Of a DNA stretch of 64,000 nt, positions 4,770-58,887 are shown one piece after another. Position numbers and translations under genes: made by a program. The stretch covers positions 1 to 64,000 of the IMG/VR virus record IMGVR_UViG_3300037882_001881, one strand, 5' to 3'. This stretch comes from a virus. The notes below the pieces were generated by a model. The model did not search any database. It was not told where the DNA came from and was given only the letters and a program-made list of their open reading frames with translations. How positions within the stretch are numbered: position 1 is the stretch's first letter; every line of letters starts with the position of its first letter.

Positions 4770-4935
4770 CTTGGTCTCCCTGAATATTGAGCCACACTTC
4801 TTTGCGATGGACCGCAACCCCTCGCGGTGCCTCGACCCCCAATCTCACCTTCCCGTTCCTGACCTCGATCACCGTGACCTCAACGTCGTCGCCGATCATC
4901 AGGGACTCATCCTTGATCCTCGTCAGTACCAGCAT
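4747..4935 (-). CDS. csrA: CsrA-family RNA-binding regulator
   Basis: The 62-residue product is full length for the family: MLVLTRIKDESLMIGDD at the start, then EVTVIEVRNGKVRLGVEAP and RGVAVHRKEVW. The residues used by CsrA for RNA binding are present: R6 in the N-terminal LTR strand and the VHRKEV strand with its Arg near residue 44. CsrA dimers bind GGA in hairpin loops of mRNA leaders and change translation or stability. GGAG lies 11 bases before ATG 4935. It sits directly after a tandem-HTH gene (29-bp overlap). Phage-borne csrA is uncommon. Leaders with ANGGA loops occur at 55.6-58.3 kb in this window. Confidence 0.92.
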   Translation of the reverse strand: MLVLTRIKDESLMIGDDVEVTVIEVRNGKVRLGVEAPRGVAVHRKEVWLNIQGDQDGDSKES

Positions 4936-5305
4936 CTTTCGGACTCCTTCCTGCGTTCATTCCCTGAGTCATCAGCCGCTCAAGGTCAGCCTTAATGATT
5001 CGTCGATGCCCCCTCGCGGTGCGGAACGATCGAACTTTGCCGTCGTCAGCCATTCGGGTAATCGTCCTCGGCGAGACTCTCAGCATTTCCGCCGCAACCG
5101 ATGGCGGAACACCCTCAAGAGCCTCGTCTTCCGGAAACGTGGTGAGCTTCGCGACGTCCTTCGAGGAGTAACGCATCTGGCCGCCTATCTTGACCCCGCG
5201 AATCACGCCGCTCTGGCTCAGATTGATCAGGGTCCAACGGCTCACGCCGATCACTCGGCAAACCTCTTTGGCTCTCATCAGGGCTGGACCATCGACCGAC
5301 ATCAT
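4907..5305 (-). CDS. Tandem excisionase-type helix-turn-helix protein
   Basis: The 132-residue protein has two HTH_17/MerR-like DNA-binding units. The first is RAKEVCRVIGVSRWTLINLSQ (about 11-31). The second is VPPSVAAEMLRVSPRTITRMADDGKVRSFRTARGHRRI (about 66-103), whose end is the typical wing of excisionases. Two units in one chain suggest binding to a direct or inverted repeat. GGGGAA stands before the paired ATGATG start. It is the first gene of the csrA-nuclease operon and could regulate it or act as directionality factor for the integrase. Which one is not decided by sequence. Confidence 0.75.
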   Translation of the reverse strand: MMSVDGPALMRAKEVCRVIGVSRWTLINLSQSGVIRGVKIGGQMRYSSKDVAKLTTFPEDEALEGVPPSVAAEMLRVSPRTITRMADDGKVRSFRTARGHRRIIKADLERLMTQGMNAGRSPKDAGTDEDQG

Positions 5306-5544: not shown

Positions 5545-5737
5545 TATGAAACATTTCGTGAAACATTCACCTGAAACAGTCGATATCTCAGTCTCTCAGC
5601 ACCATCTTTCACATCACTTTTCACACTATTTCTACATTTCGTCGGCCTCCGAAGCCGAAGGTTGTAGGTTCGATCCCTATCGAGGATAATAAGTTGCGTC
5701 TAGCGACTATGTGAAACATGCCTGATTTTGTTTCATA
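5545..5737. repeat. Repeated TGAAACA sites flanking the att core
   Basis: TGAAACAT occurs at 5547, 5560 and (as CTGAAACA) 5571 on one side of the tRNA-derived core, again at 5712 on the other side, and inverted as TGTTTCATA at 5729-5737. This spread on both sides of the core matches the arm-type sites of lambda-like attP regions. Confidence 0.5.
5642..5688 (+). other. attP core: 3' half of a tRNA-Arg(CCG) gene
   Basis: TCGGC and GCCGA form a 5-bp anticodon stem around the loop CTCCGAA (anticodon CCG). A T-arm follows (GTAGG, loop TTCGATC, CCTAT), then a 7-base acceptor strand. The 5' half of a tRNA is absent from the preceding bases. A tRNA 3' half beside a tyrosine integrase is the standard attachment core. 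It would restore the host gene on integration. The absence of a full tRNA suggests that the window represents the free phage or one junction. Confidence 0.85.
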
Positions 5738-6863
5738 ACTGCTTGGCAATCTCGACATTTTCGTCCCAAAACGAGTCCAAAACGGATGACGCATTGTTGC
5801 CAATGTAGTATGTTCTCGTCGTCTCGCTCGATGAGTGCCGCATTAGCGCCCCTAGCTGCATCTCATTGATTCGGCGAGATGCCCACCGTAACCCGAAAGA
5901 CCGTCGCAGATCATGAGCACTGGCATACTTCACCGTTCCATCGGGACGGCGATCCACAACCACGCCAGACAATTTCCCGATCCGGAATATAAGCTTCGAC
6001 AACTGGTCGGTATTCAGGACGCAATCAACACGTGTCGAGAGAACCTGGAACACAGGGCCGGTTCGATTTTCCGCCGGGACGGAGCTGATCAACGCCCAGA
6101 ACTCCGGAGCCATCGGAAACACCCTGGCCTGACCGGCCTTATCCATATCGTCAGGCATCACGAAGACCGGGTTCTTATACGTCGTCCAGTCCACATGGAA
6201 CGCTTCCCGGTCATCCCAGCTCAGGGTGCATTCGCTGATCCGCAGTCCGCTCAGCCACAGACCGCACAGCAGACGCTTGCACGCCTTCGCCCTCTCTGGA
6301 TGCTGTGTGTAGATTTGATCCGTCGCCTTCAGCATCAACTTGAACTCCGCTTCGGTCAGGGGCCGACCCTTGCTCTTCTTACGCAACCGAGGCATGTCGA
6401 AATCCACGGCGCTGCTCGTGAACCCAGCCTTGTTCGACCATCGCAGCAATCGCTTCGTCGCTCGCAGCAACTTGTGCTGCGTCGCCTTCCCCATCTCGTG
6501 CCGAAGAAACACGTCTCGCAGGGCTGCCAGCTTGTCCGGTCGGATAGCTTTGACGTCTTTGATATTCGCCTCCGCCAGCAGATTGAAGACCTGCCGGTAG
6601 ATGCACTGCGTGCTCGGCCTCATCTCACTCATCACCTGACGCTCGAACATCGACAGCATGGGCTTCAGGGGCGTCTCCGGGAGTTCCCTTGGCTCATTGC
6701 TCGTCTCGGTTCCATGCAGTCTCACAAACTCTTCTGCGGCTTCGTCGATGTTGCTCGCCAGGGGCAGACGCTTCACCTTCCGTTTGCCGTCCTTCCCCGT
6801 GAAACTGGCGACCCAACAACCCCTGGTCTGGTAGTAATAGACACTACTGCTTTTCTTCTTCAT
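5733..6863 (-). CDS. int: Tyrosine-recombinase integrase
   Basis: The 376-residue protein has a basic N-terminal arm-binding region, a core-binding SAM-like domain (about 75-165) and a catalytic domain. The catalytic residues are visible: Arg in LSGLRISEC (about 211), HDLRRSFG (about 317-324), LMRHSSSETTRTYY (about 341-354), whose last Tyr pair includes the nucleophile. The stop is 45 bp from the tRNA-derived core. GGGAGC precedes ATG 6863. It integrates and excises the phage at a tRNA-Arg gene. Confidence 0.93.
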   Translation of the reverse strand: MKKKSSSVYYYQTRGCWVASFTGKDGKRKVKRLPLASNIDEAAEEFVRLHGTETSNEPRELPETPLKPMLSMFERQVMSEMRPSTQCIYRQVFNLLAEANIKDVKAIRPDKLAALRDVFLRHEMGKATQHKLLRATKRLLRWSNKAGFTSSAVDFDMPRLRKKSKGRPLTEAEFKLMLKATDQIYTQHPERAKACKRLLCGLWLSGLRISECTLSWDDREAFHVDWTTYKNPVFVMPDDMDKAGQARVFPMAPEFWALISSVPAENRTGPVFQVLSTRVDCVLNTDQLSKLIFRIGKLSGVVVDRRPDGTVKYASAHDLRRSFGLRWASRRINEMQLGALMRHSSSETTRTYYIGNNASSVLDSFWDENVEIAKQL

Positions 6864-55553: not shown

Positions 55554-55598
55554 AGGGTCCAACCCTCCCTGCTCAGTGCCGCACGTCACGGATCGTGC
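55554..55598 (+). promoter_or_regulatory. Leader with CAGGG hairpin and ANGGA-loop hairpin
   Basis: AGGGT/ACCCT (or CAGGG/CCCTG) forms a first short stem at 55554-55571. A second stem GCACG/CGTGC (55581-55585, 55594-55598) closes the 8-base loop TCACGGAT, which contains ACGGA. It ends 14 bases before ATG 55613. The loop is almost identical to that of the leader at 58241-58258. Confidence 0.6.
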
Positions 55599-55612
55599 CG
55601 AGAAACGCCGTC

Positions 55613-55801
55613 ATGTTCTCCGCCCTTGCTCCCTGCTTTAGCTCAACCAAACTCTGGTTCGTTCACGTCCCGGTCAATCGTGCTATGTGGTCTCTCGTGT
55701 GCCACGCTCGCCAGTATGGCAGCGGCCAGGGCTGGAACGCTGAGCAAACCGCCGCACTCCACGAGCACTACCAAACGCTCATTGCTCTTGCTTCGTTCTA
55801 A
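55613..55801 (+). CDS. Small hypothetical protein, 62 residues
   Basis: ATG 55613 follows the two-hairpin leader. The product reads MFSALAPCFSSTKLWFVHVP, has AMWSLVCHARQYGSGQGWNA and ends in a helix (TAALHEHYQTLIALASF). The ribosome site is weak (GAGAAA), which fits translational control by the leader. It is followed after six bases by the next hairpin. No family was recognised. Confidence 0.5.
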   Translation: MFSALAPCFSSTKLWFVHVPVNRAMWSLVCHARQYGSGQGWNAEQTAALHEHYQTLIALASF

Positions 55802-55807
55802 TCTTCA

Positions 55808-55862
55808 ACAGGGTCGGAACGCTCCGACCCTGTCGATATATCCCGTGAGTGATGGACCTCAC
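55808..55862 (+). promoter_or_regulatory. Two-hairpin leader with ATGGA loop
   Basis: ACAGGGTCGGA (55808-55818) and TCCGACCCTGT (55823-55833) form an 11-bp stem around ACGC. Then GTGAG (55845-55849) and CTCAC (55858-55862) close the loop TGATGGAC, which contains ATGGA. The start codon is at 55885, behind AAAGGG. The order and spacing match the leaders at 55554 and 58203. Confidence 0.7.
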
Positions 55863-55884
55863 ACCGATCAGAAAGGGCACACAA

Positions 55885-57492
55885 ATGCCGACAGTCACCT
55901 ATTCCCCCGAAGACAACAAAATCCGCCTCTATGTTGGCAGGGTTCCCCGCGACGAGTACGAGACGCTCAGGGCCGCAGGCTTCGTCTCCACCCCCAAACA
56001 GAACTGCGATTTTGTCGCCACTTGGACCCCTGGACGCGAAGACCTCGCGAAAGAGTACCTTGAAGACGGTGAAGACATTGGCGACGAGGACTACAGCCCT
56101 GAAGAGCGTGCCGCCGACAGGGCCGAACGCTTCGGAGGCTATCGAGACAAGCGAGCCACTGAAGCCGGTGCCGCTGCTGATGTGTTCGAGTCAGGGCCGC
56201 AGGCTTTCGGCTCCCAATCTCTCGCCAGGGCCGAGCGTCAGGCCCGCCGACACGATCGGCACCGCGTCTACGCTGTCTCTCAGTGGTCTAAGGCTGAGTA
56301 CTGGCAGCAACGCACCGCCGGAGTGATCGCCAACGCTCTCTATAAATCCTCGCCGCATGTTCGCAGGGGCCGCATCTTGACCCTCGAAGCCGAACAGCGG
56401 AAACAACTCGCGTCGATCGCAGAGTCACAGGCGCGATACGATGCTTGGCACCGACTCGCCACGATGGAAGGAGCCGACGACATGCTTCCGCTCAACGAGG
56501 ATGGCTATGTCTCCGGCGAGCTGAACCCAGCCCAACGGCTTGCCTGCACGCTCGCCAATCACGGCAACGGCTGGTCCTCATTCTGGCACCCTACATGCGA
56601 AGCCGCTAACGAGAAGTCGAGGGAGGTCCACAAGACCTACGGCGCAGGGTTCAGCCCTTACGACCTGTTGACCAAGACCGTTTACATTGGCACACAGTTC
56701 GACCGCCTGACACCACGCCAAGTCGCCCAGCTCTACGTCAACAAATACACGAACCCAAGCAACCCCGGCACACACTCGCAACGATGGGCGAGCCATTACG
56801 AACTTCGCTTAGAGTATGAAAACGACATGCTTGCCAACGAGGGCGGAATGGTCGGCGAAGCTGACATCGAGGTCGGCGGTTGGATTCGTGGCGCAGACAC
56901 AGAAACTTGGCTGCGACGTCTGCCTGCTGTTACGTGGCACCAAATCCAGGGAATCTCTCGCTCACCAAAGACCAAGCGAGTCACGAGCGTTAAAGTCAAC
57001 GGCTTCACCCGCAGCGAAATCGAGAAGAACAACGGAAAGCCAGTCTTGGTCAGCGTCAACATCGAGCGTCTCGGCGAAGGTTGCTACAGGGCACCGACAG
57101 ACGAGGAGCGGGCCGCATTCTCAGCCACAAAGAAAACCCTGAAGGCTGCGACGCCATCAACCCCGACAATCAATCCCACTCTCAAAGATGCTCAAGCCCT
57201 TCAGGACTTTTGGAACGCCGAAGCTCTTTCCGGCGGGAAAACGACCAAGGTCGTCGAGGTACGCCAGATGACACAGGCGGAGTTCAGCGGTCGCCTCAAG
57301 CATGAGCACGCCCAAATCTCTACGCACACCCTCGGAGGCCAACGCCTCAAGCTACGCACTGCCAGGGGCGGAGGCTTCTACGATTACCGCGCCGCCCGTC
57401 AAGTTATCGTCCTGACCGACAAGCCGCAGAAGTCATTGCCTCCCAATTGGGCCGTCGTCGAAACCTCAACGCCTGAACTCGTCGAGGCGTAG
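55885..57492 (+). CDS. DUF3560-type protein, 535 residues
   Basis: AAAGGG stands before ATG 55885. The N-terminal 60 residues form a small unit (YSPEDNKIRLYVGRVPRDEY). Residues about 75-150 are charged helices with QAFGSQSLARAERQARRHDR and WSKAEYWQQRTAGVIANALY, the DUF3560 signature seen in phage and plasmid proteins. The rest is mixed with several Trp and Arg clusters and no recognised enzyme motif. DUF3560 proteins often lie near DNA-modification genes, as here (a methyltransferase follows). Function unknown. Confidence 0.7.
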   Translation: MPTVTYSPEDNKIRLYVGRVPRDEYETLRAAGFVSTPKQNCDFVATWTPGREDLAKEYLEDGEDIGDEDYSPEERAADRAERFGGYRDKRATEAGAAADVFESGPQAFGSQSLARAERQARRHDRHRVYAVSQWSKAEYWQQRTAGVIANALYKSSPHVRRGRILTLEAEQRKQLASIAESQARYDAWHRLATMEGADDMLPLNEDGYVSGELNPAQRLACTLANHGNGWSSFWHPTCEAANEKSREVHKTYGAGFSPYDLLTKTVYIGTQFDRLTPRQVAQLYVNKYTNPSNPGTHSQRWASHYELRLEYENDMLANEGGMVGEADIEVGGWIRGADTETWLRRLPAVTWHQIQGISRSPKTKRVTSVKVNGFTRSEIEKNNGKPVLVSVNIERLGEGCYRAPTDEERAAFSATKKTLKAATPSTPTINPTLKDAQALQDFWNAEALSGGKTTKVVEVRQMTQAEFSGRLKHEHAQISTHTLGGQRLKLRTARGGGFYDYRAARQVIVLTDKPQKSLPPNWAVVETSTPELVEA

Positions 57493-57498
57493 CAGATG

Positions 57499-57552
57499 GC
57501 AGGGCTGAGCCGTTCAGCCCTGTAATGCACTCCGGCGGAGCGTCCCGCCGGA
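57499..57552 (+). promoter_or_regulatory. Two-hairpin leader before the methyltransferase
   Basis: CAGGGCTGA (57500-57508) and TCAGCCCTG (57514-57522) form a 9-bp stem. Then TCCGGCGG (57531-57538) and CCGCCGGA (57545-57552) form an 8-bp stem around AGCGTC. The second arm is part of an exact 13-mer copy (57542-57554). The start codon is at 57579. Unlike its neighbours, its second loop has no GGA. Confidence 0.6.
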
Positions 57553-57578
57553 ACGGTCCAAAGTCCGAGGCTCTCACC

Positions 57579-58214
57579 ATGTCACGATCCACCGGAATCC
57601 TCCGCCTGCGGCACCTTCGCGAAGTCACCGAGGCCAGGGCCGAAGAGATGGCCGCTCAGGCTCCTCGCTTCCAGAGACTTACCCGCGAAGACTCTGCCCC
57701 ACGGGCTATCTCGTCGTTCAATCTCTTTCAGACTCCGCCGTCACTTGCTGCCAGGGTCGTAGCCTTGCTCGGTCGCACTGGCCGCACCCTGGAGCCGTCC
57801 GCCGGTCTCGGTCGCCTTTACCTCGCCGCCCGTGCTGCTGATCCATCCTCGCCCTTTGTGCTAGTTGAGCAGTCGCCCGACTGCTGCGGTGAGCTTTACA
57901 GGGCCACAGCAAACGACCACGACTGCCGGTTGATCCAGGGCGATTTTCTCGCCCAATCACCAACTTCGCTCGGACTGTTCGATTGCGTTGTGATGAATCC
58001 CCCGTTCAAGATGGGGCGAGACGTCAAGCACATCGAGCACGCTTTGCGGTTCCTCGCCCCTGGTGGTCGCCTCGTCTCGATCTGTGGCACAGGGTCGAGA
58101 CGTCAACCGTTGTTCGATCGTGCCTCCCAAGTGATCCCACTGCCGCCCGGCTCATTCCGTTCCGAGGGGACAGGGGCCGAGGCTTCGATTGTTGCTTTCG
58201 ATCAGGGCCGGTAG
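57579..58214 (+). CDS. DNA N6-adenine methyltransferase-like
   Basis: ATG 57579 has GAGG nine bases upstream. The 211-residue protein has a SAM-binding motif (RTLEPSAGLGRLYLAARAAD, about 72-91), a second strand (FVLVEQSPDC), and the catalytic CVVMNPPFKMG (about 143-153). NPPF marks enzymes that methylate exocyclic amines, usually adenine N6 in DNA. There is no clear separate target-recognition domain, so specificity is unknown. It could protect phage DNA from restriction. A nuclease partner is not adjacent. Confidence 0.8.
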   Translation: MSRSTGILRLRHLREVTEARAEEMAAQAPRFQRLTREDSAPRAISSFNLFQTPPSLAARVVALLGRTGRTLEPSAGLGRLYLAARAADPSSPFVLVEQSPDCCGELYRATANDHDCRLIQGDFLAQSPTSLGLFDCVVMNPPFKMGRDVKHIEHALRFLAPGGRLVSICGTGSRRQPLFDRASQVIPLPPGSFRSEGTGAEASIVAFDQGR

Positions 58215-58258
58215 GTTCCAGCCCTGTCTCCCCACGTGCCGCAGGTCACGGACCCTGC
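58203..58258 (+). promoter_or_regulatory. Two-hairpin leader with ACGGA loop
   Basis: CAGGGC (58203-58208) pairs with GCCCTG (58221-58226). Then GCAGG (58241-58245) and CCTGC (58254-58258) close the 8-base loop TCACGGAC, which contains ACGGA. The AAAGGA ribosome site follows at once and the start is at 58274. CsrA bound to this loop would be within reach of the ribosome site. Confidence 0.7.
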
Positions 58259-58273
58259 AAAGGACTATTCGTT

Positions 58274-58489
58274 ATGCCAGCACAACGCACAATCTTAGGC
58301 GCAGACTGCGACTGCCAGGGCTGCAACGTACCGCTATTTGCCGGGGAGGTCGGATATCGAGACCCGGAGACAGGGATCGTTGCCTGCTCCCCTGCTCATC
58401 TGGCCGACGCAGTTCAAGAGCGTGAGGATTTTGATTTGATCGCTCTGTTTCACTACAATTTCGACCAGGGCGGGAGGGTTCTAGCGTGA
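58274..58489 (+). CDS. Small Cys-containing protein, 71 residues
   Basis: The product begins MPAQRTILGADCDCQGCNVP and has a second part (ETGIVACSPAHLADAVQERE), with four Cys that could form a zinc site, and ends with a polar segment. The start follows AAAGGA and the ACGGA-loop hairpin. Its stop overlaps the start of a 29-residue membrane peptide as GTGA. Function unknown. Confidence 0.6.
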   Translation: MPAQRTILGADCDCQGCNVPLFAGEVGYRDPETGIVACSPAHLADAVQEREDFDLIALFHYNFDQGGRVLA

Positions 58490-58861: not shown

Positions 58862-58887
58862 CAGGGCTGGTACGCTCCAGCCCTGTC
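58862..58887 (+). terminator. 10-bp CAGGG hairpin followed by T-run
   Basis: ACAGGGCTGG (58862-58871) and CCAGCCCTGT (58878-58887) pair perfectly around TACGCT, followed by CTATTTTTC. It is probably an intrinsic terminator of the preceding genes. Compared with the hairpin at 55808, two stem pairs are changed on both sides, which shows that the pairing is conserved. The next start is at 58930. Confidence 0.7.

Follow-up and report, generated by a model that had tools for sequence, protein, structure and literature searches.

Three hairpins in the leaders of a small plus-strand gene module of this phage stand an even chance of being RNA operators for a protein of the CsrA family, and the protein most likely to read them would be the CsrA encoded by the phage itself. 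The window, i.e. the whole stretch of DNA analysed, covers 64 kb of a virus record 68.8 kb long. Its minus strand carries the identified phage genes, and the hairpins are found in a plus-strand module at 55.6–59.3 kb, in which small ORFs accompany genes for a DUF3560 protein and a methyltransferase. As originally predicted, and exact to the letter, each hairpin consists of a 5-bp stem and an 8-nt loop of the formula T-C/G-A-Y-GGA-Y, positioned 14–22 nt before an ATG (Table 1). The same genome carries csrA, located more than 50 kb from the hairpins on the opposite strand, and a parallel leader is present in a second csrA-bearing phage, the prophage G002.

Table 1. Features of the csrA region and of the plus-strand module in the 64-kb window.
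Feature	Position	Strand	Remarks
csrA, 62 aa	4747..4935	-	PF02599, E 7e-24; overlaps end of excisionase-like gene
Excisionase-like HTH_17 gene	4907..5305	-	PF12728, phrog_66
Tyrosine integrase	5733..6863	-	PF00589, phrog_1
Hairpin 1	55581..55598	+	GCACG[TCACGGAT]CGTGC; 14 nt 5' of ATG 55613 (62-aa ORF)
Putative 62-aa ORF	55613..55801	+	no family match; gene status uncertain
Hairpin 2	55845..55862	+	GTGAG[TGATGGAC]CTCAC; 22 nt 5' of ATG 55885 (DUF3560 gene)
DUF3560-domain gene, 535 aa	55885..57492	+	PF12083; target in common with prophage G002
Twister-P5 self-cleaving ribozyme	57491..57568	+	RF02684, 41.4 bits (gathering score 37.6)
Methyltransferase gene, MTS/DNA-methyltransferase type	57579..58214	+	PF05175, phrog_6263
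Hairpin 3	58241..58258	+	GCAGG[TCACGGAC]CCTGC; 15 nt 5' of ATG 58274 (71-aa ORF)
Shine-Dalgarno-like AAAGGA	58259..58264	+	second GGA, 12 nt past the GGA of hairpin 3
Cys-containing 71-aa ORF	58274..58489	+	3' of hairpin 3; no family match

The pairing of the three hairpins is very likely real. Stem pairs 2, 3 and 4 differ on both sides between the copies while the loop is kept, and all 15 of the 15 cells remain paired, as had been claimed from inspection, the covariation being 0.93 compared with 0.36 in shuffles, albeit from only three sequences. Between hairpins 1 and 3 a C-G pair is exchanged for G-C with pairing retained; these two also have a common 5' flank, the 23-nt element GTGCCGCASGTCACGGAYCSTGC, and are therefore probably duplicates and not fully independent of each other. 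Calculated in the leader context, the stem pair probabilities were 0.53–0.98 for hairpin 1, 0.63–0.99 for hairpin 2 and 0.28–1.0 for hairpin 3, and the minimum-energy fold of the 80-nt leader omits hairpins 1 and 3, which in the folding model thus face competing folds. The loop of hairpin 2 holds an ATG (55852, plus strand) that shares the reading frame of the DUF3560 gene and could serve as another start, placed within the putative CsrA site; the start at 55885 is the one favoured by homologues. Because of this in-frame ATG, hairpin 2 is missed by strict 'first ATG' leader scans. A reading of the hairpins as DNA operators was ruled out, since the arms vary between copies while the loop stays.

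The presence of a phage csrA, also part of the original prediction, was confirmed by a score of 81.3 bits against PF02599 (cut-off 27). The RNA-contact residues L4, R6 and R44 are retained in the protein, which can be aligned with CsrA/RsmE chains of solved structure (2jpp/2mf0 RsmE). Its gene stands in the order tyrosine integrase, excisionase-like gene, csrA and exonuclease VIII-like gene, and the succession HTH_17, csrA and nuclease is found also in the relative G003. Since the csrA region holds an integrase and an excisionase-like gene, the phage is probably temperate, with planctomycetes as its probable hosts. The leader of csrA contains no AYGGAY hairpin and only the Shine-Dalgarno-type AGGAAGGAG, an ordinary ribosome-binding site, so that the term 'self-regulating' applied earlier to the system is not supported. 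Nor is the suggested control between lysogeny and lytic growth borne out, as the genes behind the hairpins form a DUF3560/methyltransferase accessory module and not a known switch; it is csrA that adjoins the integrase and excisionase-like genes. In G003 a c4-2-like antisense RNA (L012, 12372-12441, plus strand; 36.9 bits against a gathering score of 41) lies directly 5' of csrA and overlaps the excisionase-like ORF.

CsrA-controlled leaders are well known, and an ANGGA core is common to CsrA proteins. All three window hairpins lie in 5' leaders and display A(N)GGA in their loops, two of which read ACGGAY. RsmE binds with high affinity to ANGGAX hexaloops placed directly on the stem, including ACGGAU, while SL1 of RsmZ has an 8-nt loop made up of ACGGAU and two further nucleotides and is bound about tenfold more weakly (PMC4005645). 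The hexaloop, the high-affinity form without which binding is still possible, is not seen in the three window hairpins, whose loops are all of 8 nt, and is present in the G002 leader only. Judged by their sequences, the window loops are of the SL1 kind, having an ACGGAU-type core plus two extra nucleotides, and the G002 loops are of the hexaloop kind. Unlike SL1, however, the window hairpins belong to mRNA leaders and not to a sponge RNA, and their loops have both extra nucleotides on the 5' side.

In the glgC leader a CsrA dimer bridges a hairpin and the Shine-Dalgarno sequence, with a tolerated spacing of 10–63 nt between the sites (PMC7652899). The window leaders resemble such CsrA/RsmA-repressed leaders in having GGA in the loop of a 5'-leader hairpin, to which leader 3 and the G002 leader add a GGA in the Shine-Dalgarno sequence. 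They differ from the glgC type in that the loops are of 8 nt and not 6 nt, that leaders 1 and 2 are single-site (in the window a Shine-Dalgarno GGA occurs only in the leader of 58274 and is lacking in those of 55613 and 55885), that target genes and regulator are both phage-borne and that the window sites are predictions. A role as CsrA sites has been proposed also for the AYGGAY hairpins of the TwoAYGGAY RNA (PMC4333381). The window hairpins share the AYGGAY loop with this RNA (RF01731), and the G002 leader carries two such hairpins; in contrast to the free RNA, those of the window are in leader position, and the RF01731 covariance model gave no match in the window (E up to 5) or in L010–L014 (E up to 0.5). 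With regard to the regulator, csrA is found on many phages and plasmids and had been catalogued in 30 phages by 2020; according to the review concerned, its role there still needs loss-of-function tests (PMC7366521). Compared with the phage-borne csrA genes in the papers found (e.g. of the Pseudomonas F116 type, RsmM), the window phage is alike in bearing csrA and differs in bearing candidate cognate leader sites as well; in the open-access literature no report was found of a phage that bears csrA along with cognate sites for CsrA.

Relatives were collected by alignment-guided scans, which yielded 80 DUF3560 loci in genomes and, in viral contigs, 80 of DUF3560 and 57 of csrA. Full-record searches of the DUF3560 virus records found csrA only in the window, G002 and G003 and, marginally, in G573. 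The prophage G002 resides in the genome of a planctomycete, and its csrA precedes the DUF3560 gene by about 1 kb. The leader of the latter gene contains two hairpins, CCGC[ACGGATT]GCGG and GCGCCC[ACGGAT]GGGTGC, located 43 and 18 nt 5' of the ATG, followed by the GGA of the Shine-Dalgarno sequence; the GGAs of the three sites (positions 1648, 1672 and 1689) are 24 and 17 nt apart. It reads as a textbook CsrA leader. Compared by eye, the window and G002 leaders are alike in the motif alone, which suggests that the motif recurred and was not simply inherited. Two DUF3560 genomes came out of searches through 392 and 170 genomes of planctomycetes, one of them having a leader that matches G002.

Among the 48 DUF3560 leaders from viral records tested for csrA, AYGGAY hairpins were present in two of the three csrA-positive records and in none of the 45 csrA-negative ones (Fisher p=0.0027), the window being included as the discovery case. 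Without it, the association is 1/2 versus 0/45 (p about 0.04) and is carried by a single prophage; some csrA-negative assignments may be wrong because the records are fragments. The original prediction had named csrA-bearing phages lacking leader hairpins as the observation that would speak against it, and this is in part what was observed: G003 has csrA and no hairpin before its DUF3560 gene, whereas G002 has both. In about 1 Mb of csrA-positive viral contigs, moreover, leader GGA motifs were hairpin-enclosed no more often than control motifs, so csrA phages do not in general share the arrangement. AYGGAY clusters were counted in the window, G002 and G003, as compared with 0–1 record for each control, a result that is suggestive only. 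G003 also contains a very stable hairpin, CGGGGCA[ACGGA]TGCCCCG (L115, 15492-15510, plus strand), 41 nt 5' of a gene start and within the end of the preceding gene; it may represent an additional CsrA site or chance. Two candidates from the viral contigs were rejected. L016, from a scan with the single CsrA protein, is a spurious match inside a tail-tape-like gene, and L017, the sole match of the exact-pattern hairpin scan, lies in a coding region with its stem unpaired; the sequence of hairpins 1 and 3 is thus found in no other viral contig searched.

The hairpins might have arisen by chance, as a duplicated 23-nt element joined by one fortuitous hairpin, an explanation we consider quite improbable. 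The full formula, comprising five Watson-Crick pairs and the loop, occurs three times on the plus strand and not at all on the minus strand, as against a mean of 0.01 and a maximum of 1 when the window was dinucleotide-shuffled 200 times. For each leader taken singly, a GGA hairpin with dG <= -3.5 was reached in 0.3–1.4% of shuffles. By itself, the loop word TSAYGGAY is not enriched in the window (28 observed, 22.9 expected), which favours chance and places the signal in the pairing. The common flank of hairpins 1 and 3 is likewise what a duplication would leave, and in a motif-blind test, accepting any family of three hairpins with 8-nt loops and 5-bp stems within 3 kb, 3.75% of shuffles succeeded, so that a hairpin family as such is only moderately surprising. 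The remaining weight is borne by the match to a known recognition motif, by the position in leaders and by the comparison with relatives: all three hairpins stand 5' of ATGs, the exchange of C-G for G-C between hairpins 1 and 3 leaves pairing intact, and G002 repeats the pattern with independent sequence.

Real hairpins could also serve as some other RNA element, namely a 5' stabiliser of the mRNA, the target of an unknown RNA-binding protein of the phage or a ribosome standby site, with the GGA of the loop being incidental. This would fit with the copy number of only three, two of them probable duplicates, with leaders 1 and 2 lacking a Shine-Dalgarno GGA, and with the Twister ribozyme as another RNA element in use in the same module; it is rendered unlikely by the conserved A-GGA centre of the loop on variable stems and by the recurrence of the loop core in the unrelated-looking G002 leader. 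Similarly unlikely, and nevertheless a real rival because planctomycete genomes hold several csrA copies (seven in G015, which is the genome of L029 and carries a DUF3560 relative, and four in G016), is that host CsrA proteins read the operators, so that the growth state of the host would control the accessory genes and the phage csrA would act on host mRNAs or elsewhere. The residence of prophage G002 in a planctomycete genome and the core shared among CsrA proteins agree with this explanation, which does not, however, predict that hairpins track csrA of the same record (2/3 versus 0/45, in small numbers).

From the evidence in favour of the phage's own CsrA we infer that a CsrA protein binds the hairpins, that repression is the direction of its effect and that the phage protein is the one that binds. 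CsrA would be produced from the integrase/excisionase/csrA region and would recognise the ANGGA loops of the 5' leaders in the accessory module, where its targets would be the DUF3560 gene, the small ORF that contains Cys and, possibly, the ORF of 62 aa; once bound, it would lower ribosome access or mRNA stability. Because leader 3 and the G002 leader have a GGA in the Shine-Dalgarno sequence, a CsrA dimer could bridge the hairpin and the ribosome-binding site there, as in glgC, and repression would be strongest for ORF 58274 and the DUF3560 gene of G002. Of the CsrA-leader interpretation as first proposed, the core is supported by a phage CsrA with Arg44, hairpins of the right type, the parallel in G002 and their absence from the 45 csrA-negative records. 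The parts on self-regulation and on the lysogenic or lytic role found no support, and the reader may be either the phage CsrA or a host CsrA.

It is plausible that a known mechanism, the CsrA operator, is met here in a new setting, a csrA-bearing phage. More tentatively, and with somewhat less confidence than an even chance would express, CsrA of a temperate phage and its own operators on the phage genome may form a private post-transcriptional regulon, the outline of which would be common to at least two planctomycete-type phages with DUF3560 as the common target. The phage probably regulates genes of its own at the RNA level, which had already been suspected as a use of phage CsrA. With the candidate sites and the parallel csrA-positive leader, it could be tested directly and at little cost whether phage CsrA controls phage genes and not host genes only; if so, CsrA leaders would be extended to planctomycete phages.

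As for the module itself, no DNA match was obtained for it; its DUF3560 protein, like the portal protein, has no relative among annotated phages, and ORF 58274 has none in viral contigs. L015, a near relative with 97% at the portal, is a fragment of 5.6 kb that does not include the hairpins. The Twister-P5 ribozyme retains the core elements GCAGA, GUAAUGC and CGGUCC and sits between the DUF3560 and methyltransferase genes, with a counterpart in the equivalent position (1684-1748) of the 52%-identical relative L010; it would cleave the operon mRNA immediately 5' of the methyltransferase start. Terminator-like intergenic hairpins that start with CAGGG and end with CCCTG recur on the plus strand of the window at 55808-55833, 58197-58222 and 58862-58886, and the ribozyme contains a similar stem, CAGGGCTG/CAGCCCTG. 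The sequence ACAATCTTAGGCGCAGA is present twice on the same strand, at ~58288 inside ORF 58274 and at ~59385 between genes.
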